Shown here one piece after another: positions 3,058-59,344 of a stretch of DNA of 64,000 nt. The stretch lies in NCBI GenBank assembly GCA_032622095.1, contig CP136064.1, positions 5,387,512-5,451,511 on the forward strand, given 5' to 3'. Below the pieces are notes generated by a model. It was not told the origin of the DNA. It ran no database searches and worked only from the letters and a program-made list of their open reading frames with translations. How positions within the stretch are numbered: the stretch's first letter is position 1; every line of letters begins with the position of its first letter. The stretch is from Siphonodentalium dalli. Taxonomy: Eukaryota; Mollusca; Scaphopoda; Gadilida; Siphonodentaliidae. The position numbers and the translations under genes were made by a program.

Positions 3058-3457
3058 TTAACCCTTTACCCAACAGAAGGGCCCTGTGCCAATGCATTCT
3101 CTTATATATGCGAGTCGACCATAGGTCGCCTCGCATATATAAGAGAATGCATTGGCTTAACACATTAAAAATTATAAAATTGTTAAAGAATGTAAGAAAA
3201 AATGGTAAAAAGTGTTAAAAAAAGATTTTTTTTAGGCCAATGCATTCTCTTATATATGCGAGGCGACCTATGGTCGACTCGCATATATAAGAGAATGCAT
3301 TGGCACAGGGCATAACTGTAACTATCACAATGTGGTCAAGGAGCCGGTTCCAATGATATCCATATTTGTATGGTTTTATTGAGACAGACCCAAGATATTT
3401 TAGGCTGTTGAAGCTTTATTTGGGCGGTTTTGGCCGGTTTGTTGGGTAAAGGGTTAA
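3058..3457. mobile_element. TTAA-1 element (two hairpins)
   Basis: Bounded by TTAACCCTTTACCCAACA and TGTTGGGTAAAGGGTTAA. Inside are two oppositely oriented copies of the GCCAATGCATTCTC...GAGAATGCATTGGC hairpin, separated by an AT-rich GTTAAAGAATGTAAG spacer, then a 130-bp non-palindromic arm ending CCGGTTTTGGCCGG-like sequence. No transposase. TTAA target use and CCCTTT ends point to a piggyBac-like MITE. Confidence 0.9.
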
Positions 3458-3767
3458 CTTAGTGCATAGACATTCTACATCCATCGTGTGTCACGGTGAC
3501 ATTACACGATTTATCATACTGAGTCCATGCCTCCATATCTCTACACCAGAACCAGCACTCTTGTGTGCCGTGCCAAATAAAAATGCAGGCTGGAATATAA
3601 GTGCAGGGTGGAAAATTCTGAAAATTTTAATAATAGTGCAGGACGGAACAAAAATGCAGTATGCAAGCACGTATCAATTCATACATAAGGGACAATAATT
3701 GTTAAATTACCTAAATTTTAGTAATTAAAATATGATGTTTATTGTACACCTGCTAAATTCAAACTTC

Positions 3768-4001
3768 TTAACCCTTTGAGTGTCAGGGGCCAATCTCATC
3801 GGCCCTAAACCTACAAAAATAAGTCTGTTAAAGAATATAAGAATAAATTATTAAAATTGTAAAAAAAAAAAAAAAATGTTAGGCCAATGCATTCTCTTAT
3901 ATATGCGAGGCGACCTATGGTTGACTCGCATATATAAGAGAATGCATTGGCACAGGGTATATGGGTTGATACAAAAATCGGACCTGGCACTCAAAGGGTT
4001 G
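3768..4001. mobile_element. TTAA-2 element with one hairpin module
   Basis: Left end TTAACCCTTTGAGTGTCAGG and right end CCTGGCACTCAAAGGGTTGC. The hairpin (3885-3954) is inserted into the TTAA-2 arm next to CACAGGGTATATGGGTTGAT. The right TTAA is mutated. Confidence 0.85.
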
Positions 4002-4255
4002 CCAGCATATCACACTCATCATGTGCATAACTTTTCAACAGTGAATATACTGGTTGTATTTTACATCTCCTATCCTCTTATAGTGCCATGTCCAGGGAAG
4101 ATACCATCCCGGACATACTGATGGATCGGGTGCAGTGTAGCATAATGGAGTATGGTTTCATACTTTGCTAAATTGCCAGGCAGCGGATTAGAATAGTATA
4201 ATGCTGATACACTATTCTGTTGTTGTGGATGATAAGAATGTTACATGACTCTTAG

Positions 4256-4340
4256 CTGTCGGTTACGGTGTCAAGTGAGGTTCCGCGAGATTAATATCAG
4301 GCTATGTGCACTTTGACTCACATGACACCGTATCCGACAG
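4256..4340. repeat. Imperfect inverted repeat
   Basis: CTGTCGGTTACGGTGTCAAG (4256) pairs with CATGACACCGTATCCGACAG (4321-4340) around a loop of about 40 bp. A second imperfect pair lies just downstream (TTATCTTCGGCA near 4398 and TGCCGGAGATAA near 4466). Probably decayed foldback elements. Confidence 0.6.
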
Positions 4341-4563
4341 TGAATTATCCCGTAACTTATAATCAGTTCCTTCTTAGGCCATGATGGTCTATTATTAGTT
4401 ATCTTCGGCAACATCGGGGGTATGGAGAATTAATACCTGCATGTCAATTGTGAACCCGCAGGCTGTGCCGGAGATAACGATTTTGTCCCCACAATAATAG
4501 CCAATGCAGCCTCAATTTAAGTGTGGTTTCGTATGTTATCACATTAATTCAAACCAATAATAT

Positions 4564-4708
4564 ACATTTATTGCATGGTTTCGAGGTTGACATGAAGATT
4601 TATCAACCCGAGGAAGTTAATATTCACAGAGGCTGCAGGCCGAGGTGAATATTAACTTCCAAGGGTTGGTAAATCCTCATGTCAACCTCGAAACAATGCA
4701 ATAAGTGT
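4564..4708. mobile_element. Foldback element, GTTTCGAGGTTGACATGA arms
   Basis: Arms of about 65 bp (ACATTTATTGCATGGTTTCG and complement), running through GGTTGACATGAAGATTTA and GAAGTTAATATTCAC, enclose a short GC-rich loop (GAGGCTGCAGGCC). No internal coding. No clear target duplication, so superfamily not assigned. Confidence 0.8.
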
Positions 4709-5730
4709 TTTATTATATGATCTGCCAATGTTATGAAGCCCATTAGGCCCGAAATACCTTAGTGACCCATGATATATGTACATGGATCCATCAAATGCAC
4801 AACAATGTGATTCAAGAAGTCAAAATAAACAGGATTACATTTCCTATTAATAACTCATGACGTCGCGTGATCTTGTTATTAACCCATCTGTCCTATTTAT
4901 AGGACAAACATGTAGATATAATGATTTATCAACTCATTTTCCATATCATTTAGTATGGGACTTTGAGTAGAAAGTTTGTGATCATATAATAAGAATAATT
5001 AAGTAGCCGACCTATGGATCCGGCAATAGGTAACGGTGTGCTAGAGCTAAAGCAATGTTACGATTGGTGGAAACTGCCAGTTGAAGCGGGGGGGGGTCGG
5101 TCGAAAGTAAAAACATATCACGCTGAAAATGGCCTTAGTTACCCTTGGACTACACAAAAAAAAAAAAGAATGGAGAAAAAAAAAATTGGAATTTATTTTT
5201 GCAAATGTTTTCCATTTTTAGGTGCCACGCCCACTAAAATGAAAACAGAAATAATGAGTTTCAAAGCAAATAAAACCAATAACTTATACCTATTATGTTC
5301 TTAAGTGGCCACTGAAGACATAGCAAAACTCAAATTTCTTGTATCGGTGAAAAAAATGACAAAAAGTGGCTTTTAAAAAAAAGGTCTGGCCGCAGGGGAC
5401 CCACCCCGCCCTAGGCCCTATATGTTGCAATTTTTTTCCGACCCCTGGTTGAAGGGTCATTCTATTACCCTCGATATTTATCATGCTCATATACCTCTGT
5501 TTCGAGCACGTCCTCTTAAACCCCCACTGTCAAGGGTGACGGGGGACATGGTGATTTGAACATGGCATCGCAGTCAATCAGATTGCTAGTTACATCCGGA
5601 TGTGCAGACAACCTGTTTTAACTCACCTCTCTATATTCACTGCATATTTTGCATAACCATAAAGGCTGTTTCTGGCTGTTAATCGTGTCGATGCCACATT
5701 TGGAGCACACAGCCTAAAAAACAAATCAGA
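4709..5730. other. No recognised gene; A-rich and G-run stretches
   Basis: Contains a G9 run at 5087, A-rich tracts at 5155-5200 and near 5375, and short open frames with low-complexity translations. No domain signatures recognised. Confidence 0.5.
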
Positions 5731-5881
5731 CAAGCCTTGAAATAGTGTGTCTGTCATTTGCAGAATGAGGTCCCCAGAGGGTGAATTTAGTGATGCTACC
5801 CCGCATAGCGGGCTAGCATCACCAAATTCACCCTCTGGGAACCTCATTCTGCAAATGACAGACACCCTATTTCAAGGCTTG
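5731..5881. mobile_element. hAT-A MITE, TSD AAATCAGA/GAATCAGA
   Basis: CAAGCCTTGAAATAGTGTGT...TATTTCAAGGCTTG ends with 7/8-matching flanks (5723-5730, 5882-5889). The interior is one hAT-A hairpin (GCAGAATGAGGTCCCCAGAG). Confidence 0.85.
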
Positions 5882-6076
5882 GAATCAGATAGTAGGTATA
5901 GAATCACATTCAAATACATATCTAAAGTGTTAAGCCCTTATCATTTAACCATACTGACATCAATCAAAAACTGAATATATTGAATATCCATATCTATCCA
6001 AAATGTGAAGATCATTTGGAAAATTTTAGAAGTTATCTTATCAACATAATCTAATCATCTGTGTAAATAAAAAAAC

Positions 6077-6475
6077 TTAACCCTTTACCCAACAAACCGG
6101 CCAAAACCGGCCAAATAAAGCTTCAACAGCCTAAAATATCTTCGGTCTGTCTCAATAACACCATACAAATATGGATATCATTGGAACCGGTTCATTGACC
6201 ACATTGTGATAGTTACAGTTAGCCCTGTGCCAATGCATTCTCTTATATATGCGAGTCGACCATAGGTCGCCTCGCATATATAAGAGAATGCATTGGCCTA
6301 AACAAAATCTTTTTTTAACACTTTTTACCATTTTTTCTTACATTCTTTAACAATTTTATAATTTTTAATGTGTTAAGCCAATGCATTCTGTTATATATGC
6401 GAGGCGACCTATGGTCGACTCGCATATATAAGAGAATGCATTGGCACAGGGCTGTTGTGTTGGGTAAAGGGTTAA
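6077..6475. mobile_element. TTAA-1 element
   Basis: Opposite orientation to the 3058 copy: TTAACCCTTTACCCAACAAA, long arm with CCGGCCAAAACCGGCC, hairpin, AT-rich spacer, inverted hairpin, then TGTTGGGTAAAGGGTTAA. TTAA at both ends. Confidence 0.9.
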
Positions 6476-6570
6476 TGTCAATCCAGATTTTGTGTTTCAT
6501 GATTTTCAGTGGTATGCTACAAGGGTCGTGTCAGAGTGATGTGTGCTTTATACATCGATTGAAGGTGATT

Positions 6571-9003: not shown

Positions 9004-9347
9004 CTCAGAGCACTGATTGTTGCATCGATGGCCAAGTCATGACGCTCTCAGTACAGAGAGTGGGGATGGGAATTCTTGACTGTTCATTTGATACTCTACA
9101 TTCCTGGTCAGATCTAAATAATCGGCCTTCTTGATTACTTACCCGATCCGTTCCTGTTCGACCAGATCTATATAATCGGCTTTCTCGATTACGTGCATGA
9201 TCCGTTCCTGTTCTTCCATACTCAGACCATCATTCTTATTGTACGATTTAACTCGATGAGTGTGTACGGACCAGCCTGTACCCAACCTGAAAAGACAGAG
9301 AAAAAAAAATTAAAAATTCAACAGCACAGTAGTTCATCACATGAGTG

Positions 9348-9425
9348 TCTCGCATATATAAGAGAATGCATTGGCATAGGATCGTTAATGACGCACCAGC
9401 ACTGCTCCCGTCACGAAAGGGTTAA
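9348..9425. mobile_element. TTAA-3 right-end fragment
   Basis: Half of the hairpin (CTCGCATATATAAGAGAATG), then GCACCAGCACTGCTCCCGTC and ACGAAAGGGTTAA, the reverse complement of the TTAA-3 left end at 1699. Confidence 0.75.
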
Positions 9426-14222: not shown

Positions 14223-14611
14223 TTAACCCTTTACCCAACAAACCGGCCAAAACAAGCTTCAACAGCCTAAAATATCTTGGGAATGTCTCAATAGAACCAT
14301 ACAAATATGGATATCATTGGAACCGGCTCCTTGACCACATTGTGATAGTTACAGTTATACCCTGTGCCAATGCATTCTCTTATATATGCGAGTCGACCAT
14401 AGGTCACCTCGCATATATAAGAGAATGCATTGGCCTAAAAAAAATATTTTTTAACACTTTTTACCATTTTTTCTTACATTCTTTAACAATTTTATAATTT
14501 TTAATGTGTTAAGCCAATGCATTCTCTTATATATGCGAGGCGACCTATGGTCGACTCGCATATATAAGAGAATGCATTGGCACAGGGCCAATCTGTTGGG
14601 TAAAGGGTTAA
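14223..14611. mobile_element. TTAA-1 element
   Basis: TTAACCCTTTACCCAACAAA to GTTGGGTAAAGGGTTAA with both hairpins and the AT-rich spacer. Same orientation as the 6077 copy; internal CCGGCC palindrome shortened. Confidence 0.9.
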
Positions 14612-15374: not shown

Positions 15375-15771
15375 TTAACCCTTTACCCAACAAACCGGCC
15401 AAAACCAGCCAAATAAAGCTTCAACAGCCTAAAATATCTTCGGTCTGTCTCAATAGAACCATACAAATATGGATATCATTGGAATCGGCTCTTTGACCAC
15501 ATTGTGATAGTTACAGTTATGCCCTGTGCCAATGCATTCTCTTATATATGCGAGTCGACCATAGGTCGCCTCGCATATATAAGAGAATGCATTGGCCTAA
15601 AAAACACTTTTTAACACTTTTTACCATTTTTTCTTACATTCTTTATCAATTTTATAATTTTTAATGTGTTAAGCCAATGCATTCTCTTATATATGCGAGG
15701 CGACCTATGGTCGACTCGCATATATAAGAGAATCCATTGGCACAGGGCCCTTCTGTTGGGTAAAGGGTTAA
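15375..15771. mobile_element. TTAA-1 element
   Basis: Complete copy with TTAACCCTTTACCCAACAAA and GTTGGGTAAAGGGTTAA ends, two hairpins and spacer. One hairpin base differs (AGAATCCATTGG). Confidence 0.9.
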
Positions 15772-15835
15772 TTTAGATATTAATGTGTTGGTTTGATTTA
15801 TTATGTTATGATATTAGTGTCGGCACCGTTTAACA

Positions 15836-16479
15836 CAGGGACCAGCCATGAGGGAGACTTGGGAGACAGGGACCAGCCATGAGGGAGACTTGGGAGACAG
15901 GGACCAGCCATGAGGGCGACTTGGGAGACAGGGACCAGCCATGAGGGAGACTTGGGAGACAGGGACCAGCCATGAGGGAGACTTGGGAGACAGGGACCAG
16001 CCATGAGGGAGACTTGGGAGACAGGGACCAGCCATGAGGGAGACTTGGGAGACAGGGACCAGCCATGAGGGAGACTTGGGAGACAGGGACCAGCCATGAG
16101 GGAGACTTGGGAGACAGGGACCAGCCATGAGGGAGACAGGGACCAGCCATGAGGGAGACTTGGGAGACAGGGACCAGCCATGAGGGAGACTTGGGAGATA
16201 GGGACCAGCCATGAGGGAGACTTGGGAGACAGGGACCAGCCATGAGGGAGACTTGGGAGACAGGGACCAGCCATGAGGGCGACTTGGGAGACAGGGACCA
16301 GCCATGAGGGAGACTTGGGAGACAGGGACCAGCCATGAGGGCGACTTGGGAGACAGGGACCAGCCATGAGGGCGACTTGGGAGACAGGAACCAGCCATGA
16401 GGGAGACTTGGGAGACAGGGACCAGCCATGAGGGAGACTTGGGAGACAGGGACCAGCCATGAGGGAGACTTGGGAGACA
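15836..16479. repeat. 31-bp minisatellite, about 21 copies
   Basis: Unit CAGGGACCAGCCATGAGGGA + GACTTGGGAGA (31 bp); one unit is shortened to 22 bp. Because 31 is not a multiple of three and the unit lacks minus-strand stops, all three minus frames stay open and give a repeated GWSLSPKSPSWLVPV-like peptide. I treat these as non-coding. Relatives lie at 35719, 50281 and, by shared core, 17385. Confidence 0.95.
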
Positions 16480-24301: not shown

Positions 24302-24544
24302 TTAACTCTTTGAGTGCCAGGGGCCGATATTATCGGCCCTAAACCTACACAATAAGTCTGTTAAAGAATATAATAAAATATATTAAAATTGTAAAACAAA
24401 AACAAAAAACAAAAAAATTCTTAAGCCAATGCATTCTCTTATATATGCGAGGCGACCTATGGTCGACTCGCATATATAAGAGAATGCATTGGCACAGGGT
24501 ATATGGGTTTATACAAAAATCGGACCTGGCACTCAAAGGGTTAA
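24302..24544. mobile_element. TTAA-2 element with one hairpin module
   Basis: TTAACTCTTTGAGTGCCAGG to CCTGGCACTCAAAGGGTTAA, TTAA intact at both ends. Hairpin at 24426-24494, preceded by the AT-rich GTTAAAGAATATAA spacer. Confidence 0.9.
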
Positions 24545-25330: not shown

Positions 25331-28300
25331 AAATGTTCAGATAATAAGTTTAACCCTTTCTATACTAAAGCATCATTGATGAGTAGTTATCCTTTAGGAA
25401 TGTTCAGATAATAAGTTTAACCCTTTCTATACTAAAGCATCATTGATGAGTAGTTATCCCATAGGAAATGTTCAGATAATAAGTTTAACCCTTTCTATAC
25501 TAAAGTATCATTGATGAGTCGTTATCCTTAAGGAAATGTTCAGGTAATAAGTTTAACCCTTTCTATACTAAAGTATCATTGATGAGTCGTTATCCCATAT
25601 GAAATGTTCAGATAATAAGTTTAACACTTTCTATACTAAAGCATCATTGATGAGTAGTTATCCCATATGAAATGTTCAGATAATAAGTTTAACCTTTTCA
25701 ATACTAAAGCATCATTGATGGGTAGTTAACCCATAGGAAATGTTCAGGTAATAAGTTTAACCCTTTCTATACTAAAGTATCATTGATGAGTAGTTATCCT
25801 TAAGGAAATGTTCAGATAATTAGTTAACCCTTTCTACATTAAAGCACCATTGATGAGTAGTTATCCCATAGGAAATGTTCAGGTAATAAGTTTAACCCTT
25901 TCTATACTAAAGTATCATTGATGAGTAGTTATCCTTAAGGAAATGTTCAGATAATTAGTTAACCCTTTCTACATTAAAGCACCATTGATGAGTAGTTATC
26001 CCATAGGAAATGTTCAGATAATAAGTTTAACCCTTTCTATACTAAAGCATCATTGATGAGTAGTTATCCCATAGGAAATGTTCAGATAATAAGTTTAACC
26101 CTTTCTATACTAAAGCATCATTGATGAGTAGTTATCCCATAGGAAATGTTCAGATAATAAGTTTAACCCTTTCTATACTAAAGTATCATTGATGAGTCGT
26201 TATCCTTAAGGAAATGTTCAGGTAATAAGTTAAACCCTTTCTATACTAAAGTATCATTGATGAGTCGTTATCCTTAAGGAAATGTTCAGATAATAAGTTT
26301 AACCCTTTCTATACTGAAGCACCATTGATGAGTAGTTATCCCATAGGAAATGTTCAGGTAATAAGTTTAACCCTTTCTATACTAAAGTATCATTGATGAG
26401 TAGTTATCCTTAATGAAATGTTCAGATAATTAGTTAACCCTTTCTACATTAAAGCACCATTGATGAGTAGTTATCCCATAGGAAATGTTCAGATAATAAG
26501 TTTAACCCTTTCTATACTAAAGCATCATTGATGAGTAGTTAACCCATAGGAAATGTTCAGATAATAAGTTTAACACTTTCTATACTAAAGCATCATTGAT
26601 GAGTAGTTATCCCATATGAAATGTTCAGATAATAAGTTTAACCCTTTCTATACTAAAGCATCATTGATGAGTCGTTATCCCATAGGAAATGTTCAGGTAA
26701 TAAGTTTAACCCTTTCTATACTAAAGTATCATTGATGAGTAGTTATCCTTAAGGAAATGTTCAGATAATTAGTTAACCCTTTCTACATTAAAGCACCATT
26801 GATGAGTAGTTATCCCATAGGAAATGTTCAGATAATAAGTTTAACCCTTTCCATACTAAAGCATCATTGATGAGTAGTTAACCCATAGGAAATGTTCACA
26901 TAATAAGTTTAACCCTTTCCATACTAAAGCATCATTGATGAGTAGTTATCCTTAAGGAAAAGTTCAGATAATAAGTTTAACCCTTTCTATACTAAAGCAT
27001 CATTGATGAGTAGTTATCCCATAGGAAATGTTCAGATAATAAGTTTAACCCTTTCTATACTAAAGAAATATTGATGAGTAGTTATCCTTAAGGAAATGTT
27101 CAGATAATACGTTTAACCCTTTTTATACTAAAGCATCATTGATGAGTAGTTATCCCATAGGAAATGTTCAGATAATAAGTTTAACCCTTTCTATACTAAA
27201 GCATCATTGATGAGTAGTTATCCCATAGGAAATGTTCAGATAATAAGTTTAACCCTTTCTATACTGAAGCATCATTGATGAGTAGTTATCCCATAGGAAA
27301 TGTTCAGATAATAAGTTTAACCCTTTCTATACTAAAGCATCATTGATGAGTAGTTATCCCATAGGAAATGTTCAGATAATAAGTTTAACCCTTTCTATAC
27401 TAAAGCATCATTGATGAGTAGTTATCCCATAGGAAATGTTCAGATAATAAGTTTAACCCATTCTATACTAAAGCATCATTGATGAGTAGTTAACCCATAG
27501 GAAATGTTCACATAATAAGTTTAACCCTTTCCATACTAAAGCATCATTGATGAGTAGTTATCCTTAAGGAAATGTTCAGATAATAAGTTTAACCCTTTCT
27601 ATACTAAAGCATCATTGATGAGTAGTTATCCCATAGGAAATGTTCAGGTAATAAGTTTAACCCTTTCTATACTAAAGTATCATTGATGAGTAGTTATCCT
27701 TAAGGAAATGTTCAGATAATTAGTTAACCCTTTCTACATTAAAGCACCATTGATGAGTAGTTATCCCATAGGAAATGTTCAGATAATAAGTTTAACCCTT
27801 TCCATACTAAAGCATCATTGATGAGTAGTTAACCCATAGGAAATGTTCACATAATAAGTTTAACCCTTTCCATACTAAAGCATCATTGATGAGTAGTTAT
27901 CCTTAAGGAAATGTTCAGATAATAAGTTTAACCCTTTCTATACTAAAGCATCATTGATGAGTAGTTATCCCATAGGAAATGTTCAGATAATAAGTTTAAC
28001 CCTTTCTATACTAAAGTATCATTGATGAGTCGTTATCCTTAAGGAAATGTTCAGGTAATAAGTTTAACCCTTTCTATACTAAAGTATCATTGATGAGTCG
28101 TTATCCCATATGAAATGTTCAGATAATAAGTTTAACACTTTCTATACTAAAGCATCATTGATGAGTAGTTATCCCATATGAAATGTTCAGATAATAAGTT
28201 TAACCTTTTCAATACTAAAGCATCATTGATGGGTAGTTAACCCATAGGAAATGTTCAGGTAATAAGTTTAACCCTTTCTATACTAAAGTATCATTGATGA

Positions 28301-31300: not shown

Positions 31301-34234
31301 AAATGTTCAGATAATAAGTTTAACCCTTTCCATACTAAAGCATCATTGATGAGTAGTTAACCCATAGGAAATGTTCACATAATAAGTTTAACCCTTTCCA
31401 TACTAAAGCATCATTGATGAGTAGTTATCCTTAAGGAAAAGTTCAGATAATAAGTTTAACCCTTTCTATACTAAAGCATCATTGATGAGTAGTTATCCCA
31501 TAGGAAATGTTCAGATAATAAGTTTAACCCTTTCTATACTAAAGAAATATTGATGAGTAGTTATCCTTAAGGAAATGTTCAGATAATACGGTTAACCCTT
31601 TTTATACTAAAGCATCATTGATGAGTAGTTATCCCATAGGAAATGTTCAGATAATAAGTTTAACCCTTTCTATACTAAAGCATCATTGATGAGTAGTTAT
31701 CCCATAGGAAATGTTCAGATAATAAGTTTAACCCTTTCTATACTGAAGCATCATTGATGAGTAGTTATCCCATAGGAAATGTTCAGATAATAAGTTTAAC
31801 CCTTTCTATACTAAAGCATCATTGATGAGTAGTTATCCCATAGGAAATGTTCAGATAATAAGTTTAACCCTTTCTATACTAAAGCATCATTGATGAGTAG
31901 TTATCCCATAGGAAATGTTCAGATAATAAGTTTAACCCATTCTATACTAAACATCATTGATGAGTAGTTATCCCATAGGAAATGTTCAGATAATAAGTTT
32001 AACCCTTTCTATACTAAAGCATCATTGATGAGTAGTTATCCCATAGGAAATGTTCAGGTAATAAGTTTAACCCTTTCTATACTAAAGTATCATTGATGAG
32101 TAGTTATCCTTAAGGAAATGTTCAGATAATTAGTTAACCCTTTCTACATTAAAGCACCATTGATGAGTAGTTATCCCATAGGAAATGTTCAGATAATAAG
32201 TTTAACCCTTTCCATACTAAAGCATCATTGATGAGTAGTTAACCCATAGGAAATGTTCACATAATAAGTTTAACCCTTTCCATACTAAAGCATCATTGAT
32301 GAGTAGTTATCCTTAAGGAAATGTTCAGATAATAAGTTTAACCCTTTCTATACTAAAGCATCATTGATGAGTAGTTATCCCATAGGAAATGTTCAGGTAA
32401 TAAGTTTAACCCTTTCTATACTAAAGTATCATTGATGAGTAGTTATCCTTAAGGAAATGTTCAGATAATTAGTTAACCCTTTCTACATTAAAGCACCATT
32501 GATGAGTAGTTATCCCATAGGAAATGTTCAGATAATAAGTTTAACCCTTTCCATACTAAAGCATCATTGATGAGTAGTTAACCCATAGGAAATGTTCACA
32601 TAATAAGTTTAACCCTTTCCATACTAAAGCATCATTGATGAGTAGTTATCCTTAAGGAAATGTTCAGATAATAAGTTTAACCCTTTCTATACTAAAGCAT
32701 CATTGATGAGTAGTTATCCCATAGGAAATGTTCAGATAATAAGTTTAACCCTTTCTATACTAAAGAAATATTGATGAGTAGTTATCCTTAAGGAAATGTT
32801 CAGATAATACGTTTAACCCTTTCTATACTAAAGCATCATTGATGAGTAGTTATCCCATAGGAAATGTTCAGATAATAAGTTTAACCCTTTCTATACTAAA
32901 GCATCATTGATGAGTAGTTATCCCATAGGAAATGTTCAGATAATAAGTTTAACCCTTTCTATACTGAAGCATCATTGATGAGTAGTTATCCCATAGGAAA
33001 TGTTCAGATAATAAGTTTAACCCTTTCTATACTAAAGCATCATTGATGAGTAGTTATCCCATAGGAAATGTTCAGATAATAAGTTTAACCCTTTCTATAC
33101 TAAAGCATCATTGATGAGTAGTTATCCTATAGGAAATGTTCAGATAATAAGTTTAACCCTTTCTATACTGAAGCATCATTGATGAGTAGTTATCCTTAAG
33201 GAAATATTGAGATAAAATGTTTAAACCTTTCTATACTAAAGCATCATTGATGAGTAGTTATCCCATAGTACATGTTCAGATAATAAGTTTAGCCCACTCA
33301 ATACTAAAGCATGATTCATAAGTAGTTATCCAATAGGAAATGTTCAGATAATAAGTTTAACCCTTTCTATACTAAAGCATTATTGATGGGTAGTTATCCC
33401 ATAGGAAATGTTCATATAATAATTTGAACCTTTTCAATACTAAAGCATCATTGATGAGTAGTTATCCTTTAGGAAATGTTCAGATAATAAGTTTAACCCT
33501 TTCTATACTAAAGCATCATTGATGAGTAGTTCCTTTAGGAAATGTTCAGATAATAAGTTTAACCCTTTCTATACTAAAGTATCATTGATGAGTAGTTATC
33601 CTTAAGGAAATGTTCAGATAATTAGTTAACCCTTTCTACATTAAAGCACCATTGATGAGTAGTTATCCCATAGGAAATGTTCAGATAATAAGTTTAACCC
33701 TTTCCATACTAAAGCATCATTGATGAGTAGTTAACCCATAGGAAATGTTCACATAATAAGTTTAACCCTTTCCATACTAAAGCATCATTGATGAGTAGTT
33801 ATCCTATAGGAAATGTTCAGATAATAAGTTTAACCCTTTCTATACTGAAGCATCATTGATGAGTAGTTATCCTTAAGGAAATATTGAGATAAAATGTTTA
33901 AACCTTTCTATACTAAAGCATCATTGATGAGTAGTTATCCCATAGTACATGTTCAGATAATAAGTTTAGCCCACTCAATACTAAAGCATGATTCATAAGT
34001 AGTTATCCAATAGGAAATGTTCACATAATAAGTTTAACCCTTTCTATACTAAAGCATTATTGATGGGTAGTTATCCCATAGGAAATGTTCATATAATAAT
34101 TTGAACCTTTTCAATACTAAAGCATCATTGATGAGTAGTTATCCTTTAGGAAATGTTCAGATAATAAGTTTAACCCTTTCTATACTAAAGCATCATTGAT
34201 GAGTAGTTCCTTTAGGAAATGTTCAGATAATAAG

Positions 34235-34545
34235 TTCAATAAAAGGTCAGCCGACCACAGTGTCCCCCGAAAATGTGGCAAGTCGATGCCGCTTTGTTAA
34301 AGAAATTTAAAAAAATGTTGAAGTCGAAAAGGGTTAATAACTCCGTCAAAAAATATTTTTCCCCTCATCTATATACATGTTGCACATATCTTCAATATAT
34401 GGGCAACAATATTCTGAAGTTTCAAATCTCTGGGATGAAATCTGTAGGAGGAGATGATTACACCATGAAGGTACTCAAAAGTGTGACGGACGGACGGACG
34501 AACGGACAGTGCGACAGACGGATGAACGGACGGACGGAGCCCATT
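34235..34545. repeat. GACGG-type segment interrupting the array, copy 1
   Basis: TTCAATAAAAGGTCAGCCGA, GTTGAAGTCGAAAAGGGTTA, CAATATATGGGCAACAATAT, then GACGGACGGACGAACGG. It begins directly after a satellite unit and returns to satellite at TTTCTATATTAAAGCACC. The open frame across it is not conserved in copy 2. Confidence 0.88.
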
Positions 34546-35281
34546 TCTATATTAAAGCACCATTGATGAGTAGTTATCCCATAGGAAATGTTCAGATAAT
34601 AAGTTTAACCCTTTCCATACTAAAGCATCATTGATGAGTAGTTAACCCATAGGAAATGTTCAGATAATAAGTTTAACCCTTTCCATACTAAAGCATCATT
34701 GATGAGTAGTTATCCTTAAGGAAATGTTCAGATAATAAGTTTAACCCTTTCTATACTAAAGCATGATTCATGAGTAGTTATCCCATAGGAAATGTTCATA
34801 TAATAATTTGAACCCTTTCCATACTAAAGCATCATTGATGAGTAGTTATTCCATAGGAAATGTTCAGATAATAAGTTTAACCTTTTCAATACTAAAGCAT
34901 CATTGATGAGTAGTTATCCTTTAGGAAATGTTCAGATAATAAGTTTAACCCTTTCTATACTAAAGCATCATTGATGAGTAGTTATTCCATAGGAAATGTT
35001 CAGATAATAAGTTTAACCTTTTCAATACTAAAGCATCATTGATGAGTAGTTATCCTTTAGGAAATGTTCAGATAATAAGTTTAACCCTTTCTATACTAAA
35101 GCATCATTGATGAGTAGTTATTCCATAGGAAATGTTCATATAATAAGTTTAACCTTTTCAATACTAAAGCATCATTGATGAGTAGTTATCCTTTAGGAAA
35201 TGTTCAGATAATAAGTTTAACCCTTTCTATACTAAAGCATCATTGATGAGTAGTTCCTTTAGGAAATGTTCAGATAATAAG

Positions 35282-35595
35282 TTCAATAAAAGGTCAGCTG
35301 ACCACAGTGTCCCCCAAAAATGTGGCAAGCCGATGCCGCTTTGTTAAAGAAATTAAAAAAAATGTTGAAGTCGAAAAGGGTTAATAACTCCGTCAAAAAA
35401 TATTTTTCCCCTCATCTATATACATGATGCACATCTTCAATATATGGGCAACAATATTCTGAAGTTTCAAATCTCTGGGATGAAATCTGTAGGAGGAGAT
35501 GATTACACCATGAAGGTACTCAAAAGTGTGACGGACGGACGAACGGACAGTGCGACAGACGGATGAACGGACGGACGGAGCCCATTTCTATAGTC
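35282..35595. repeat. GACGG-type segment ending the array, copy 2
   Basis: Nearly identical to 34235-34545 at an offset of 1047 bp and preceded by the same satellite units. Here it continues into TATAGTCCCCCAAAAATAAA (twice), a likely true element end. The array plus segment was therefore duplicated as one block. Confidence 0.88.
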
Positions 35596-35718
35596 CCCCA
35601 AAAATAAATATTATAGTCCCCCAAAAATAAATTTTTCGGGGACAATAAATATCCATTTAGTATAAACATGGTTAAGATGAACAATAGGTTGCTGGCAAAG
35701 AAGCCCTGTGGTGCCAAA

Positions 35719-36028
35719 CAGGGACCAGCCTTGAGGGCGACTTGGAAGACAGGGACCAGCCTTGAGGGCGACTTGGAAGACAGGGACCAGCCTTGAGGGC
35801 GACTTGGAAGACAGGGACCAGCCTTGAGGGCGACTTGGAAGACAGGGACCAGCCTTGAGGGCGACTTGGAAGACAGGGACCAGCCTTGAGGGCGACTTGA
35901 GAGACAGGGACCAGCCTTGAGGGCGACTTGGAAGACAGGGACCAGCCTTGAGGGTGACTTGGAAGACAGGGACCAGCCTTGAGGGCGACTTGGAAGACAG
36001 GGACCAGCCTTGAGGGCGACTTGGAAGA
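35719..36028. repeat. 31-bp minisatellite, 10 copies
   Basis: Unit CAGGGACCAGCCTTGAGGGC + GACTTGGAAGA, a subfamily of the 15836 array (CCTTG for CCATG). Left flank of the second M copy. Confidence 0.95.
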
Positions 36029-36032: not shown

Positions 36033-36383
36033 TTAACCCTTTACCCAACAAACCGGCCAAAACAAGCTTCAACAGCCTAAAATATCTTCGGTCTGTCTCA
36101 ATAGAACCATACAAATATGGATATCATTGGAACCGGCTCCTTGACCACATTGTGATAGTTAAAGTTATGCCCTGTGCCAATGCATTCTCTTATATATGCA
36201 AGTCGACAATAGGTCGCCTCGCATATATAAGAGAATGCATTGGCCTTACATTCTTTAACAATTTTATAATTTTTAATGTGTTAAGCCAATGCATTCTCTT
36301 ATATATGCGAGGCGACCTATGGTCGACTCGCATATATAAGAGAATGCATTGGCACAGGGCCGTTCTGTTGGGTAAAGGGTTAA
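36033..36383. mobile_element. TTAA-1 element at the minisatellite/M-core junction
   Basis: TTAACCCTTTACCCAACAAA to GTTGGGTAAAGGGTTAA, two hairpins, shortened spacer. The paralogous site at 16488-16491 is a single TTAA (CTTCTTAAAATGTG), a related empty site showing TTAA target duplication. Confidence 0.93.
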
Positions 36384-39077: not shown

Positions 39078-39404
39078 TTAATCCTTTCAGGACGGGAGCT
39101 GCACTGGTGCAGCATTAAAGATCCTGTGCCAGTGCATTCTCTTATATATGCGAGTCCCCCAGGGAACCTCAGATATATAAGAGAATGCACTGGGTTACAA
39201 TTTCAAGATAGATATTGTTCGGCCAATGAATTCTCTTATATATGCGAGGCTCCCTATGGAAGCGATGATACGAGAACGATATGATTCATATTCATTGGAG
39301 GGAAATGATGAGATAATAAGTTTATCCTTGTTAAACTTATTATTAACTGAACATTTCCTATGGGAACTACTCATCAATGAGTATTTAGTATAGAAAGGGG
39401 TCAA
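39078..39404. mobile_element. TTAA-3/TTAA-4 composite
   Basis: TTAATCCTTTCAGGACGGGA opens a TTAA-3 end with GTGCATTCTCTTATATATGC hairpin halves. It then changes at about 39260 into TTAA-4 sequence: GGAAATGATGAGATAATAAG, its inverted partner and TTTAGTATAGAAAGGGGTCAA. Either a chimaera or one element nested in another. Confidence 0.65.
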
Positions 39405-43023: not shown

Positions 43024-43471
43024 TTAACCCTTTCAGTGCCAGGGCCCGATCTCATCGGCCCTAATTTACAGTATGTTGAGTTAAATTAAAAAAAAAAAAA
43101 TTTTGTTTTTGGGTTGAATTTGTTTTGGGTATGCTTAAGCATGCTATAGCGAATTTAAAAACAAACTGGATAAAACCTTAGGGGCATGTTATAACTCAAA
43201 ACTATCACCAAGTATTCATAGTAATAATTTTGATGCCCATGAAAAACGTAAGATTCCCTGGCACTAAACCTACAAAATAAGTCTGTTAAAGAATTTAAGA
43301 AAAAATTATTAAAATTGTAAAAAATAATAACAAATGAAGAAAAATTGTTAGGCCAATGCATTCTCTTATATATGCGAGGCGACCTATGGTCGACTCGCAT
43401 ATATAAGAGAATGCATTGGCACAAGGTATATGGGTTGATACAAAAATCGGACCTGGCACTAAAAGGGTTAA
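43024..43471. mobile_element. TTAA-2 element with one hairpin module
   Basis: TTAACCCTTTCAGTGCCAGG to CCTGGCACTAAAAGGGTTAA, TTAA at both ends. Longest TTAA-2 form, with an extra arm containing GCATGCTATAGCGAATTTAA shared with 49336-49740. Confidence 0.9.
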
Positions 43472-48577: not shown

Positions 48578-48944
48578 TTAACCCTTTACCCAACAGAAGG
48601 GCCCTGTGCCAATGCATTCTCTTATATAAGAGAATGCATTGGCTTAACACATTAAAAATTATAAAATTGTTAAAGAATGTAAGAAAAAATGGTAAAAAGT
48701 GTTAAAAAAAGATTTTGTTTAGGCCAATGCATTCTCTTATATATGCGAGGCGACCTATGGTCGACTCGCATATATAAGAGAATGCATTGGCACAGGGCAT
48801 AACTGTAACCATCACAATGTGGTCAAGGAGCCGGTTCCAATGATATCCATATTTGTATGGTTCTATTGAGACAGACCGAAGATATTTTAAGCTGTTGAAG
48901 CTCTATTTGGCCGGTTTTGGCCGGTTTGTTGGGTAAAGGGTTAA
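48578..48944. mobile_element. TTAA-1 element with one collapsed hairpin
   Basis: Same orientation as 3058. The left hairpin is reduced to GCCAATGCATTCTCTTATAT + AAGAGAATGCATTGGC, lacking the whole GCGAG...CTCGC centre, while the second hairpin is complete. TTAA at both ends. Confidence 0.92.
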
Positions 48945-49335: not shown

Positions 49336-49740
49336 TTAACCCTTTCAGTGCCAAGTCCAATTTTTGTATCAACCCATATACCCTGTGCCAATGCATTCTC
49401 TTATATATGCGAGTCGACCATAGGTTTCCCCGCATATATAAGAGAATGCATTGGCCTAACAATTTTTCATCATTTGTTATTATTTTTTACAATTTTTTAC
49501 AATTTTAATAATTTTTTCTTATATTCTTTAACAGACTTATTTTGTAGGTTGAGTGCCAGGGAATCTTACGTTTTTCATGGGCATCAAAATTATTACTATG
49601 AATACTTATAACATGCCCCTAAGGTTTTATCCAGTTTGTTTTTAAATTCGCTATAGCATGCTTAACCATACCCAAACAAAATTTATACCCTAAAATTTTT
49701 TAGGGCCGATTTTACAGACCCCTGGCACTGAAAGGGTTAA
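49336..49740. mobile_element. TTAA-2 element with one hairpin module
   Basis: TTAACCCTTTCAGTGCCAAG to CCTGGCACTGAAAGGGTTAA. The hairpin has a changed loop (GGTTTCCCCGC). It sits exactly between segment G and repeat F, at the TTAA that ends F. Confidence 0.9.
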
Positions 49741-50156: not shown

Positions 50157-50260
50157 TTAACCATTTTGTGACGGGAACTGCGCTGGTGCAGCATTAAAGA
50201 TCAAGTGTACCAGTGCATTCTCTTATATATGCGATTCTCCCTATATAAGAGAAGTTGCAC
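50157..50260. mobile_element. TTAA-3 left-end fragment
   Basis: TTAACCATTTTGTGACGGGA, GCTGGTGCAGC and half a hairpin (GTGCATTCTCTTATATATGC), then truncated beside the minisatellite. Confidence 0.7.
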
Positions 50261-50280
50261 ATTTTAGGGAGAAGATGTAT

Positions 50281-50899
50281 CCCATGTCGCCCTCTAGACT
50301 GGTCCCTGTCTCCCAAGTCCCCCTCTAGACTAGTCCCTGTCTCCCAAGTCACCGTCTAGGCTGGTCCCTGTCTCCCAAGTCGCCCTCTAGACTGGTCCCT
50401 GTCTCCCAAGTCGCCCTCTAGGCTGGTCCCTGTCTCCCAAGTCACAGTCTAGGCTGGTCCCTGTCTCCCAAGTCGCCCTCTAGACTGGTCCCTGTCTCCC
50501 AAGTCACTGTCTAGACTGGTCCCCGTCTCCCAAGTCACTGTCTAGGCTGGTCCCTGTCTCCCAAGTCACCGTCTAGGCTGGTCCCTGTCTCCCAAGTCAC
50601 TGTCTAGACTGGTCCCTGTCTCCCAAGTCACTGTCTAGGCTGGTCCCTTTTTCCGAAGTCACCCTCTAGGCTGGTCCCTGTCTCCCAAGTCACTGTCTAG
50701 ACTGGTCCCTATCTCCCAAGTCACTGTCTAGGCTGGTCCCTGTCTCCCAAGTCACCCTCTAGGCTGGTCCCTGTCTCCCAAGTCACTGTCTAGACTGGTC
50801 CCTGTCTCCCAAGTCACTGTCTAGGCTGGTCCCTGTCTCCCAAGTCACCGTCTAGGCTGGTCCCTGTCTCCCAAGTCACCGTCTAGGATGGTCCCTGAT
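50281..50899. repeat. 31-bp minisatellite, about 20 copies (reverse of 15836)
   Basis: Unit GGCTGGTCCCTGTCTCCCAA + GTCACCGTCTA, reverse complement of the 15836 and 35719 units, with internal subtypes (CACTGT, CACCGT, CGCCCT). Preceded by GGGAGAAGATGTATCCC, which recalls the M core. Confidence 0.95.
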
Positions 50900-53741: not shown

Positions 53742-54141
53742 TTAACCCTTTACCCAACAAACCGGCCAAAACCGGCCAAATAAAGCTTCAACAGCCTAAA
53801 ATATCTTCGGTCTGTCTCAATAAAACCATACAAATATGGATATCATTGGAACCGGCTCCTTGACCACATTGTGATAGTTACAGTTATGCCCTGTGCCAAT
53901 GCATTCTCTTATATATGCGAGTCGACCATAGGTCGCCTCACATATATAAGAGAATGCATTGGCCTAAAAAAAATCTTTTTTTAACACTTTTTACCATTTT
54001 TTCTTACATTCTTTAACAATTTTATCATTTTTAATGTGTTAAGCCAATGCATTCTTTTATATATGCGAGGCGACCTATGGTCGACTCGCATATATAAGAG
54101 AATGCATTCGCACAGGGCCCTTCTGTTGGGTAAAGGGTTAA
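53742..54141. mobile_element. TTAA-1 element
   Basis: Complete copy, orientation as 6077, TTAA at both ends, CCGGCCAAAACCGGCC present, both hairpins and spacer. Confidence 0.93.
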
Positions 54142-55753: not shown

Positions 55754-55920
55754 TTCCATAGTTTTACTTAGTCACCAACAATAAACCCAGTATATAAAGT
55801 GTACAACGCAGAAGATAAACTCACCTTGTTTTTCTCACTTAAAGTTCTATTACAATGTATCAAAGGCCACCCCGACATGAAAGTAGTCGATATAATAAAG
55901 CATGCTTAACTGCATGACCT
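55754..55920. other. Flank with AACTGCATGACCTTTAA direct repeat
   Basis: AACTGCATGACCTTTAA precedes the TTAA-1 element and is repeated at 56397-56413 after it, longer than a TTAA duplication. Confidence 0.6.
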
Positions 55921-56375
55921 TTAACCCTTTACCCAACAAAACGGCCAAAAACGCCCAAATAAAGCTTCAACAGCCTAAAATACCTTCGGTCTAGCTGTCT
56001 CAATAACACCATACAAATATGGATATCATTGGAACCGGTTCATTGACCAAATTGTGATGGTTACAGTTATGCCCTGTGCCAATGCATTATCTTATATATG
56101 CGAGTCGACCATAGGTCGCCTCGCATATATAAGAGAATGCATTGGCCTAAAAACACTTTTTACCATTTTTTCTTACATTCTTTAACAATTTTATAATTTT
56201 TTCTTACATTTTTTAACAATTTTTATAATATTTTTCTACATTCTTTGACAATTTTATCATTTTTAATATGTGTTAAGCCAATGCATTCTCTTATATATGC
56301 GAGGTGACCTATGGTCGACTCGCATATATAAGAGAATGCATTGGCACAGGGCCGTTCTGTTGGGTAAAGGGTTAA
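55921..56375. mobile_element. TTAA-1 element with expanded spacer
   Basis: TTAA at both ends. The AT-rich TTCTTACATTCTTTAACAAT spacer is present three times in tandem, showing how it can expand. Confidence 0.92.
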
Positions 56376-56387
56376 GTGGGATATGAT

Positions 56388-56600
56388 GTGTCGATAAACT
56401 GCATGACCTTTAAAGTATAAAAGATTCAAGGTTAGACAAGGATTCCGACACTTTTTCACAAGGCGAAACTAAAATCCTCCCACGAGAAGATCACGCCGAT
56501 TCAATCCACTATCGATGTGTAGTCGCAATGTGGAATCATTTTCCAATATGACATTTAGCTAATTGATTCCAGTAAGACTGAGGTACTTTGGTGCAAATTC
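56388..56600 (+). repeat. Local duplicate E, copy 1
   Basis: TAAAGTATAAAAGATTCAAG, GGCGAAACTAAAATCCTCCC and GATTCCAGTAAGACTGAGGT; further copies at 58213, 60405 and 61050. Confidence 0.8.
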
Positions 56601-56635
56601 AGTGAAAGGGAAAAGCTACATTAACAAATGGAAGC

Positions 56636-57086
56636 TCACAAATATTACCCGCTATAAAATCCAGTCGTAAGTCGGGATTTTTTTACCCTGTGCCAATGCA
56701 TTCTCTTAGGTCGCCTCGCATATATAAGAGATTGCATTGGCCTAACAATTTTTTACAATTTTAATAATGTTTTCTTGTATTCTTTAACAATTTTATAATT
56801 TCACCCATACAGAGCCCCAGACAAACATGAGCAGACGACACTCTTCTATATGCTTCTATATATATGTGGGGCTCCCTGCAGGGTAATGGATGTTTTTTAT
56901 TTTATGTCCTAAAAATTGTAAGAAACATTTATTTAAAAAACATGATAAAAAATTGTTAGGCCAATGCATTCTCTTATATATGCGAGGGGACCTATGGTCG
57001 ACTCGCATATATAAGAGAATGCATTGGCACAGGGTAAAAAAATCCCGACTTACGACTGGATTTTATATGGCAGGTCACAAATATTA
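56636..57086. mobile_element. Element with hairpin module but non-TTAA ends
   Basis: Arms TATAAAATCCAGTCGTAAGT + CGGGATTTTTTTACCCTGTG (56653 on) and perfect complement ending 57067 carry two hairpin modules (left one shortened). A GAGCCCCAGAC...GTGGGGCTCC stem lies in the centre. The 12-bp TCACAAATATTA stands on both sides (56636-56647, 57075-57086). Confidence 0.75.
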
Positions 57087-57448
57087 AACAGATATAATCA
57101 GAGAGGTGGGACTAAAGTGCATTAAGCTCAGACAAAATTATGCATGTTGCGAACAAATTTCAACGTCAAAAAAGGGAGATAACTTCACTAAAAAAAATTA
57201 AACAGATCTCATAATTCCAGGTTTACATGATACTAGATATCATTAGGGTGTTCCCATAGCTACGCTCTGAACGTCAAAGCGATAGTGAGTCTAATTAACG
57301 TTTATTTGTGTTAAAATTACGCAATAAAATTTCTGGTCTCTGTTAACAGTAACCACTATTATTCGTTAGCTAAATAATCATATGTTTTTAGATCAGAAAA
57401 TATTCGAAATATAATCAATAATCAATAATAAACGACAGAAGCATTACC
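57087..57448. other. No recognised gene; GACGG-type trace
   Basis: CAACGTCAAAAAAGGGAGAT + AACTTCAC near 57160 resembles the GACGG-type repeat interior. Otherwise unassigned. Confidence 0.45.
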
Positions 57449-57530
57449 GGACAGGGGTCTTCGTTTCCGGACAGGGGTCTTCGTTTCCGGACAGGGGTCT
57501 TCGTTTCCGAACAGGGGTCTTCGATTCATA
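57449..57530. repeat. 20-bp minisatellite, 4 copies
   Basis: CCGGACAGGGGTCTTCGTTT tandemly repeated, the last copies slightly changed (CCGAACAGG, TTCGATT). Confidence 0.93.
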
Positions 57531-57589
57531 TCTAATATTTTATACCCCGGTTACTATATAACAGATGTTTACAAAGAGATAGACCATCT

Positions 57590-57723
57590 TTAACCCTTTC
57601 AGTGCCAAGTCCGATTTTTGTATCAACCCATATTTCCTTGATCATTTTTCAAATTTATTGATTATAATAATGTGATACATTGATGGAAAGAGGCTCTAAG
57701 AGACTTGGCACTGAAAGGGTTAA
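57590..57723. mobile_element. TTAA-2 element, deletion derivative without hairpin
   Basis: TTAACCCTTTCAGTGCCAAG to ACTTGGCACTGAAAGGGTTAA with TTAA at both ends. Left arm as in 2642; the right arm is mostly deleted. Confidence 0.9.
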
Positions 57724-57917
57724 TATTCAATGCCGAAGAAAAGAAGAGACCTTATATTCCTCTAATACGATAAATTCTATGATTAAATATTGTTTATATA
57801 TCAAGCTATTTTGATCACATGATGTGACAAAAGCCATTAATTATTAGGTTGGATCTGTAATACTGAAGATTACATGTACATGTCACTTTAAGGCCTCCAA
57901 TAAACAAGTTAAACTTA

Positions 57918-58130
57918 CAGTAATGCCCTAAATAACCGACCCCTTAACCACAGCAGAATTATGGGTAACTTTTCAGGATTTAGTCGGAAATATGGCTTGT
58001 TGCCATTCATCGGAAAGCTCTTGGTGAGAACTTTCCGATGAATGGCAGCAAGCCATATTTCCGACTAAATCCTGAAAAGTTACCCATAATTATGCTATGG
58101 TTAAAGAGTCGATTACTTAGGGAATTACTG
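57918..58130. mobile_element. Family C MITE, TA TSD
   Basis: CAGTAATGCCCTAAATAACC ... GGGAATTACTG flanked by TA. Nearly full foldback with CGGAAAGCTC / GAACTTTCCG arms. Confidence 0.9.
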
Positions 58131-58212
58131 TACCTTGATATTTTCAATTAATACACGAATACAATGCAGAGTGCAAAGGCTAAGAGTCAAACATAAAGGA
58201 AGTGAGCATAAT

Positions 58213-58580
58213 AATCAAACCTTTAAAGTATAAAAGATTCAAGATCAGAGAAAGATTCCAACACTTTTTCATAAGGCGAAACTAAAATCCTCCCACGAGA
58301 AGCATGGCATATCATATCAACTCAATCCACTATCGATGTGTAGTCGCGGTGTGGCGTCAGTTCCCATATGACATTTAGTTTATTGATTCCAGTAAGACTG
58401 AGGTACTTTAGTAAGTAAGGTGACAAACTATAAACTATAACTTTTTGCAATGTTATACTTGGTTGGTCCAAGAATATCAACCAAATTTATATTCAGTAAT
58501 AATACCTTAAAACTTAAACCACATTTCACAGTTAATAATTTGAAAAATTTAATACTTTATACTGATGAGCAATTACTTAA
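58213..58580 (+). repeat. Local duplicate E, copy 2
   Basis: TTTAAAGTATAAAAGATTCA through AGTAAGGTGACAAACTATAA to TACTGATGAGCAATTACTTAA. The final 60 bp recurs at 59344-59403 on the other side of F and TTAA-1. Confidence 0.8.
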
Positions 58581-58581
58581 A

Positions 58582-58959
58582 GACATATTATGTACTTGTT
58601 CAGGTGCGTGAAACTGATAAGTTAGTATTCACTATTCAGGCGCTATGCAAACTGGAAGAATATAACATTCTACAAACATCGCCGAAAATATGAAACAAAT
58701 CGACCGTACCACTCCATGGAAAACATCGTCTGAACTATGCTCAATTGTAAATATTTACTACTCGATTCGGGACGCATATATCGGCGATAAACGAACGAAA
58801 ACAATTTCGCCATCGAGAGTCACTGCATTGAATTAATATATAAGAATGACGGTGTGTGTTGTCAATTTGGTTATAATAGTTTTAAAAATAACTACCTTGA
58901 ACAAGATTATTCTCCATTTCTATTTGATCACCCGACTGGAGTGTTTCACATCACTTTAA
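58582..58959 (+). repeat. Dispersed repeat F
   Basis: TTAAAGACATATTATGTACT to TTTCACATCACTTTAA. Its terminal TTAA is the insertion site of the TTAA-1 element that follows. Confidence 0.85.
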
Positions 58960-59344
58960 CCCTTTACCCAACAAACCGGCCAAAAACGCCCAAATAAAGC
59001 TTCAACAGCCTAAAATATCTTCGGTCTGACTCAATAAAACCATACAAATATGGATATCATTGGAACCGGCTCAATGACCACATTGTGATGGTTATAGTTA
59101 TGCCCTGTGCCAATGCATTCTCTTATATATGCGAGTCGACCATAGGTCGCCTCGCATATATAAGAGAATGCATTGGTCTAAAAAATTCTTTTTTTATCAT
59201 TTTTTCTTACATTCTTTAACAATTTTATCATTTTTAATGTGTTAAGCCAATGCATTCTCTTATATATGCGAGGCGACCTATGGTCGACTCGCATATATAA
59301 GAGAATGCATTGGCACAGGGCCCTTCTGTTGGGTAAAGGGTTAA
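58956..59344. mobile_element. TTAA-1 element inserted at the end of F
   Basis: TTAACCCTTTACCCAACAAA to GTTGGGTAAAGGGTTAA, both hairpins present. The left TTAA is shared with the F terminus. Confidence 0.92.

Follow-up and report, generated by a model that had tools for sequence, protein, structure and literature searches.

A 69-bp hairpin cassette common to non-autonomous DNA transposons with four types of ends in Siphonodentalium dalli

Results

Elements in the window

The window, i.e., the whole stretch of 64,000 nucleotides that was analysed, is part of the Siphonodentalium dalli genome of 2.23 Gb in nine contigs and holds non-autonomous DNA transposons (MITEs) with four end types, F1 to F4, and one common hairpin cassette (Table 1). 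Nine F1 elements are present with both ends, each with two inverted hairpins, the F2 elements carry one hairpin copy and the hairpin of the F3 elements is diverged, all of which agrees with the preliminary description, where these three kinds were called TTAA-1, TTAA-2 and TTAA-3. The two TTAA-2-ended elements without the hairpin that it placed at 2642 and 57590 also exist, but they are not clean empty versions of the hairpin-bearing elements, because their interior differs wholly after CCCATAT; the proposed gain or loss of the module as a unit is thus unsupported there.

Table 1. Positions and strands of the elements in the window
Feature	Position	Strand
F1 (TTAA-1) element, two inverted hairpins	3058..3457	-
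F1 element	6077..6475	+
F1 element	14223..14611	+
F1 element	15375..15771	+
F1 element, spacer shortened	36033..36383	+
F1 element, one hairpin symmetrically shortened to 36-bp palindrome	48578..48944	-
F1 element	53742..54141	+
F1 element, spacer longer	55921..56375	+
F1 element	58956..59344	+
F2 (TTAA-2) element, one hairpin, one end with degenerate TTAA	3768..4002	-
F2 element, one hairpin	24302..24544	-
Long F2 element, one hairpin	43024..43471	-
Long F2 element, one hairpin	49336..49740	+
TTAA-2-ended fold-back MITE without hairpin, one end with degenerate TTAA	2642..2847	.
TTAA-2-ended MITE without hairpin	57590..57723	.
F3 (TTAA-3) element, two diverged hairpins, end coordinate approximate	1699..1940	+
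F3 element, far end lost, end coordinate approximate	39078..39270	+
F3 end, broken hairpin, runs into 31-bp minisatellite, approximate	50157..50270	+
F3 end, partial hairpin, approximate	9340..9425	-
F4 element (non-TTAA ends), two hairpins flanking longer core, left end approximate	56642..57078	.
203-bp filler without transposon ends in satellite	815..1017	.

A protein-coding origin was dropped, since none of five ORFs, of which three lie in the window and two in L004, reached the Pfam cut-off. A weak zinc-finger match of one window ORF (E 0.024) is below that cut-off. No tRNA or known RNA gene was found in the window, and the Rfam 15 scan of the window gave 0 matches at the gathering score.

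Structure and copy number of the hairpin

The hairpin is real, with a measured length of 69 bp rather than the 70 bp given before: two 27-bp arms with one T/C mismatch, five further pairs and a 3-nt loop. Its RNA, taken together with 12 bases of flank, folds at -55.5 kcal/mol (z -14.3). Across the genome, the arm GCCAATGCATTCTC occurs 168,925 + 168,661 times, and CCCTGT followed by this arm gives 76,182 + 75,820 = 152,002 exact borders, with the reversed patterns that served as controls giving 0. A chance palindrome is ruled out by these controls together with the fold z-scores. Each exact arm sequence has 21 copies in the window, where 4.9 are expected from the forward genome count, i.e., about 4.3 times the average. 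The cassette has the layout CCCTGT-[69-bp hairpin]-C/TTAA-spacer. The hairpin is directional, its CCCTGT side pointing to whichever end of the element is closer, and the two hairpins within F1 and within F4 are inverted repeats of one another.

Alignment A1, which consists of 21 hairpins chosen by hand (17 of them distinct), exceeds all 500 shuffles in its covariation score and in its cells with a double change (14), but its count of double-changed pairs (4) is matched or exceeded in 301 of the 500. As two of these four pairs split F3 from the rest, the covariation may reflect few events.

Four kinds of borders

Of 131 outer borders that were classified, 121 fit four kinds. In this total some borders are counted more than once, owing to tandem duplication on C1 or to overlap of the fetched loci (L023/L025, L030/L031, L056-L058 and L060/L064 among others), and 76 borders come from C1 loci picked for the exact arm, so that the unselected sample is L001-L020 only (28 borders). 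Between kinds the similarity ends at CCCTGT, outside which nothing common is seen by eye, and the hairpin consensus is identical in F1, F2 and F4. One hairpin module thus resides inside several element types, as had been claimed. By inspection, not by a script count, no mixed element pairing an F1 end with an end of F2 or F4 was seen.

F1, F2 and F3 have TTAA ends, starting TTAA-CCCTTT, with terminal inverted repeats of about 14-18 bp, and their CCCTTT ends contain the CC[C/T]T motif of the piggyBac/TTAA type. At L023, and likewise at L025, which is its duplicate, the F1 insertion has the sequence CGACCTC-TTAA-[F1]-TTAA-CCAAAGCAGAATTATGG, and the uninterrupted relative, CGACCCCTTAACCACAGCAGAATTATGG, is located in the window near 57952. 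The TTAA target is duplicated upon F1 insertion, as in piggyBac/TTAA-type MITEs, and this is observed for F1 only; in F2 and F3 TTAA is present at the ends. The element that was described near 56636 belongs to F4 and does have non-TTAA ends. F4 has terminal inverted repeats of about 44 bp and lacks the TTAA target site of piggyBac/TTAA-type MITEs: among six complete copies, five show a 4-bp AT[AT]T duplication (ATAT or ATTT on both sides) and the sixth has the flanks ATAT and AAAT. All six come from other loci and do not include the window's own F4, whose left end is damaged.

Under common descent alone, the hairpin would have been retained in a single ancient MITE lineage whose ends changed stepwise after new transposases. 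The same start of all F1-F3 ends and the homologous spacers of F1, F2 and F4 (see below) are in line with this, and in the part of the coral report drawn on here the terminal CC[C/T]T motif is likewise common to the CMITE families (PMC2872659). However, the F1, F2 and F3 ends look unrelated by eye inside the first 6-8 bases, even the two arms of F1 cease to match about 14 bp in from TTAA, and F4 has a different target site and yet the same hairpin as F1 and F2. We consider common descent alone to be improbable.

Another explanation is that the module itself, CCCTGT...ACAGGG, whose inverted repeats bear the hairpins, is mobile and inserts at TA, and that having landed in F2- and F4-type MITEs it travels along with them. 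TA is indeed found directly outside CCCTGT in 21/21 F2 borders, 17/20 F4 borders and 6/10 unassigned borders, F4 is symmetrical about the module (TTTTTTTA-module-TAAAAAAA), and at L036/L074 and L052/L073 the recognisable sequence ends at one module border, with unrelated flanks. By contrast, TA is missing in 28/30 F1 long, 32/32 F1 short, 10/10 F3b and 7/8 F3a borders, and where present it may be just part of the sequence common to F2 and F4. Moreover, the other module end is lost in L036/L074 and L052/L073, and among the copies none was seen to have both module ends intact together with an empty site. A mobile module seems unlikely to us. Around the module there is no duplication that all kinds have in common.

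Cassette interiors

The spacers of F1, F2, F4 and L028+L075 resemble one another in all six pairs, each above all 300 composition shuffles (in the closest case 58 against a maximum of 54). It is noted that L028+L075 has F3 ends. The F3 ends thus enclose two cores, the first with a 27-bp spacer and a TCTCC loop, and the second, with this one example, having a long AT-rich spacer and a TCGACC-type loop as in the other families. The 27-bp spacer scores 18-19 against each other spacer, where the shuffle maxima are 21-24, so that no score exceeds the shuffles.

The filler in the satellite takes the place of 69 bp in a 114-bp unit and is made up of about 22 bp of satellite-like sequence and 10 bp of the hairpin arm, followed by AT-rich spacer. 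The reading of the solo hairpin L036 as independent movement was withdrawn, because its left side, L074, carries a diverged F4 core; this core is 72% identical to F4 (76/105 alignment columns) and the adjoining hairpin equals the consensus.

Constancy and breakage of the hairpin

In a set of 21 F1 copies that counts one insertion twice (L023 and L025), a variant present in at least two copies occurs at 1 of 138 hairpin sites and at 18 of 171 arm sites (p 1.9e-4). The singletons amount to 20/2,649 cells (0.76%) in the hairpin and 32/3,527 (0.91%) in the arms. As the private substitutions are arm-like while there are almost no subfamily differences in the F1 hairpin, the source copies appear to hold the hairpin constant.

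This constancy could stem from gene conversion and not from function. Palindromes are prone to conversion, and a functionless hairpin might be kept the same by homogenisation among very abundant palindromes, as the diverged F4 core beside a consensus hairpin at L036/L074 would suggest. Conversion acting on all copies predicts, however, a depletion of hairpin singletons. In a second comparison for F1 their number is reduced without reaching significance (20/2,649 versus 57/5,278 cells, p 0.18), with p 0.08 for F2 and 0.055 for F4, whose variant counts, with poly-T spacer and truncated F4 ends among them, carry less weight than that of F1. We hold this explanation, too, to be improbable.

Broken hairpins seem to break preferentially at the loop, with 9 of 18 breakpoints at positions 31-39 of 69 in 13 interrupted hairpins (p 1.7e-4), a set picked by hand after looking. 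The 13 events remain from 62 interrupted rows once 13 own-alignment rows were set aside, along with L024 and L025 as duplicates, L034 as a run of N, the chance matches in L010 and at window 4500, small indels and hairpins of the F3 type. The gap fraction is 0.068 and 0.104 in the hairpins, and 0.020 and 0.006 in the F1 arms.

Discussion

The 69-base hairpin lies a short way in from the ends in at least four kinds of element, which suggests a passenger cassette passed between transposons. We propose, with a probability of about one half, that the cassette has been copied among MITEs by template switching or gap repair and then spread by each family's transposase. During replication or gap repair in one element, the template would be switched to a hairpin copy elsewhere, which may be promoted by the palindrome with its apparent tendency to break at the loop, and the cassette would thereby gain a new pair of transposon ends. 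The composite could then be amplified by any transposase recognising the outer ends, with the amplifying source copies retaining the hairpin unchanged, most likely as an aid to amplification, for instance because it draws the ends together or stalls replication. The template switching, the benefit to transposition and a transposase of the piggyBac type are what we infer from the sequences. As F2 has a single hairpin, a need for a hairpin pair is excluded.

The preliminary description left two options, a small parasite inserting into MITEs or exchange by recombination. The latter fits better, given that no duplication is common to all kinds, that two cores occur with F3 ends (the second in one example) and that a module piece without ends lies in the satellite. 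It is also conceivable, though on the whole rather unlikely, that the hairpin cassette is a selfish passenger that moves among families with TTAA and AT[AT]T targets and raises their amplification, the successful MITE families being those that captured it.

Palindromic or fold-back DNA that multiplies is known from mitochondrial double-hairpin elements and foldback transposons, which differ in genome compartment or structure. The highly conserved domains of SINEs, such as the V domain in MER6, are reportedly also one conserved module in elements with different ends; these are mostly retroposons and are not known to contain a hairpin cassette.

A published model has template switching take place within inverted-repeat transposons, and in the part of that work used here, the Pack-TIR/FoSTeST case resembles the copying by template switching proposed above in that foreign sequence enters in this way and is multiplied by the transposase (PMC8277862). 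What is captured there is gene sequence, whereas here it is a repeated hairpin cassette in several end types.

The view of the preliminary description that no described family has this arrangement does not hold, because the CMITEs of the coral Acropora are similar in kind: as far as the sections of the report drawn on here go, they are MITEs of the TTAA type whose ends differ and whose interior is common, with CCCTTT-type terminal repeats and the TTAA target as in F1-F3, with the interior more conserved between families than the ends, and with tandem arrays and composite elements, as here (PMC2872659). The present elements likewise have differing terminal repeats around one interior. In the same sections, the differences are that the CMITE core is about 75 bp without being described as a hairpin, that all CMITE families are TTAA while F4 is not, that two inverted hairpin copies or an array are usual here, and that about 1,600 copies are estimated in A. 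millepora, compared with the 152,002 exact borders counted here (PMC2872659). Moreover, local alignment of the published 60-bp CMITE core (PMC2872659) with the module gives scores of 13-14, equal to the shuffle mean, i.e., no similarity.

The coral authors, in the part of their report considered, could not explain the common interior (PMC2872659), and it has been open since then how new MITE families originate and why certain interiors become much more widespread than the rest. Here, the common interior is a discrete, directional, very-high-copy hairpin in elements with two types of target site. As this interior is constant across F1 subfamilies, with normal private substitutions after insertion, it offers a testable case of a transposition-helping interior that would be passed between transposon families.

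Results

In the Siphonodentalium dalli genome (2,226,750,531 bases in nine contigs; the window is C4:5387512-5451511), the hairpin arm GCCAATGCATTCTC has 168,925 forward and 168,661 reverse matches and CCCTGTGCCAATGCATTCTC has 76,182 and 75,820, with the reversed-pattern controls for both giving 0 genome-wide, and the exact arm is matched 21 times in the window, about 4 times the genome average. The 69-bp hairpin, GCCAATGCATTCTCTTATATATGCGAGTCGACC-ATA-GGTCGCCTCGCATATATAAGAGAATGCATTGGC, is fully paired apart from a single T/C mismatch that makes it directional. It is flanked by CCCTGT on the side toward the nearer element end and, on the other side, by CTAA or TTAA and then the spacer, which in F1 (TTAA-1 elements), F2 (TTAA-2) and F4 (the type with non-TTAA ends) is AT-rich with GTTAAAGAATGTAAG-like units. 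Each F1 and F4 element has two hairpin copies arranged as facing inverted repeats, and the self-folding of a whole F1 element as DNA (-134.5 kcal/mol, z -27) is far beyond expectation.

The module borders, defined as CCCTGT with at most 2 changes adjoining an arm with at most 3 changes, number 131 in the window and the loci fetched from elsewhere in the genome (L001-L076), and under class patterns drawn up after inspecting the flanks they fall into F1 short (32), F1 long (30), F2 (21), F4 (20), F3b (10) and F3a (8; F3 being the TTAA-3 elements), with 10 unassigned, among which, by eye, L026 resembles F3a and L019 9670 a decayed F4 end. In the window 27/27 borders were assigned; L001-L020, 20 loci sampled at round coordinates whatever their content, contribute 28 borders, of which 23 were assigned and 5 were not; the loci on contig C1 were picked for having the arm and include duplicates. 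F1, F2 and F3 all begin TTAA-CCCTTT and appear different beyond that point, and the F4 end is GTGACCCGCCATATCAAATCCAGTCGTAAGTCGGGAT, with ATAT or ATTT on either side in 5 of the 6 complete copies. L023 and its duplicate L025, set against an uninterrupted relative near window 57952, record an F1 insertion at TTAA. Since four kinds of ends are present in the classification, the "at least four" of the preliminary description holds, with no fifth kind established among these borders.

The outer border of the module is sharp, with the similarity between kinds ending at CCCTGT. Two cores are found among the F3-ended elements. The usual one has a 27-bp spacer and the loop TCTCCCATAGGGAGCC, and the second, in one element (L028+L075, which appears interrupted by another insertion and whose right end is covered to only 23 bp of the F3b flank), has a long AT-rich spacer and a TCGACC-type loop as in F1, F2 and F4. 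The AT-rich spacers of L028+L075, F1, F2 and F4 score above all 300 shuffles in 6/6 pairings; the 27-bp spacer, which likewise starts CTAACAAT, gives no score above shuffles against those four. TA adjoins the module in F2 and F4, and no duplication around the module is common to all kinds. The hairpin-less TTAA-2 form does not amount to a clean empty version of TTAA-2, and in the F4-ended sequence at L004 8160 (minus), which likewise has no hairpin, the interior also differs, from GGGA onward. This F4 end, which is followed by unrelated sequence, might lead to an autonomous F4 parent, but no ORF of at least 120 aa was found in L004.

Among 21 F1 copies, singleton changes amount to 20 in 2,649 cells in the hairpins and 32 in 3,527 in the arms, and variants common to at least 2 copies occupy 1/138 hairpin sites versus 18/171 arm sites (p 1.9e-4), with 10/79 in the spacer. 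From the similar singleton rates and the few shared hairpin variants it follows that inserted copies gain substitutions alike in hairpin and arms and that the copies founding subfamilies kept the hairpin. Deletions differ, gaps being commoner in hairpins than in arms. The shared-variant cells go in the same direction in F2 (17 copies, first 200 bp; 2/1,173 in the hairpin vs 60/2,048) and F4 (23 ends; 14/1,535 vs 249/2,375), counts in which truncated F4 ends and the poly-T spacer introduce alignment noise. The constancy of the hairpin would follow from selection for amplification or, alternatively, from conversion between source copies; the similar singleton rate in hairpin and arms tells against conversion of all hairpin copies. 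At L036/L074 (C1 ~969.9-970.2 kb), without F4 ends, an F4-like core 72% identical (76/105 columns) lies beside a consensus-identical hairpin, which may reflect conversion or an unrecognised fifth family.

An F3b end runs into an array of the hairpin with a 28-bp spacer, with two units in L076 and then five full ones in L032. The filler interrupting the 114-bp-unit satellite consists of ~22 bp of satellite-like sequence, 10 bp from the hairpin arm and then AT-rich spacer, after which the array picks up 69 bp further in the unit, with neither TTAA nor an inverted repeat at the filler's junctions. Such an arrangement is expected of a patch made by template switching or gap repair; an old insertion that lost both ends by deletion is a less likely origin. 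In 13 interrupted main-type hairpins, the loop (positions 31-39 of 69) holds 9 of the 18 breakpoints, which were hand-curated after looking (p 1.7e-4).

Repeats in the window
Positions	Feature	Context
1-814 and 1018-1151	114-bp-unit satellite	array interrupted by hairpin-spacer filler at 815-1017
15835-16479	31-bp minisatellite, one of three related (ACAGGGACCAGCC... and complement)	at most 70 bp from F1 element
25331-35283	10-kb satellite, 68-bp units	unit includes TTAACCCTTTCTATACTAAA, like TTAA-transposon end
35718-36028	31-bp minisatellite, related	at most 70 bp from F1 element
50276-50897	31-bp minisatellite, related	comes after broken F3 end

Satellite sequence containing TTAACCCTTTCTATACTAAA is tandem in L013 too, with a variant in L012. 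In L030, L031 and L076 (C1 near 542-544 kb) the F3b end forms a ~33-bp tandem repeat (AACCCTTCCATGACTGGAGTTACCTCCCTTAAT) beside hairpin arrays. The spacing of hairpin copies every ~11,175 bp at C1 ~842-921 kb and every ~14,500 bp at C1 ~742-786 kb reflects large tandem duplications carrying elements.

Discussion

The coral CMITEs, as presented in the accessible text of PMC2872659, are TTAA MITEs of six families whose ends differ and whose 75-bp interior is more conserved than the ends; they form tandem arrays, and that text leaves the shared interior without explanation. Like them, the elements here have one interior within different ends; unlike in them, the interior is a different one and forms a hairpin, the copy number is far higher and one family is non-TTAA. 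Among the matches listed, titles and abstract openings contain no description of this repeat, and the letters of a hairpin 14-mer do not occur in the literature searched.

Counting against recombination between elements, no mixed-end chimera (e.g. F1 on one side and F4 on the other) was seen by eye. In L036/L074, L050/L072 and L052/L073 a core with a hairpin is present and, on the sides that were looked at, no outer end could be recognised; at L004 2614-2977 and L020 6638-7003 the F4 end survives only as its inner portion. These end-less cores and partial ends fit a mobile module as well as truncation, and a parasite module that inserts itself is a possible if less favoured reading. The preliminary description had reported a hairpin module shared by different elements, which is confirmed, and had offered for it either such a parasite or recombination, an interpretation that is supported in part. 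PMC8277862 proposes that sequence enters inverted-repeat transposons through template switching and is then spread by transposition. Between the two readings, recombination between elements, with the cassette copied from one MITE to another by template switching or gap repair, is favoured.
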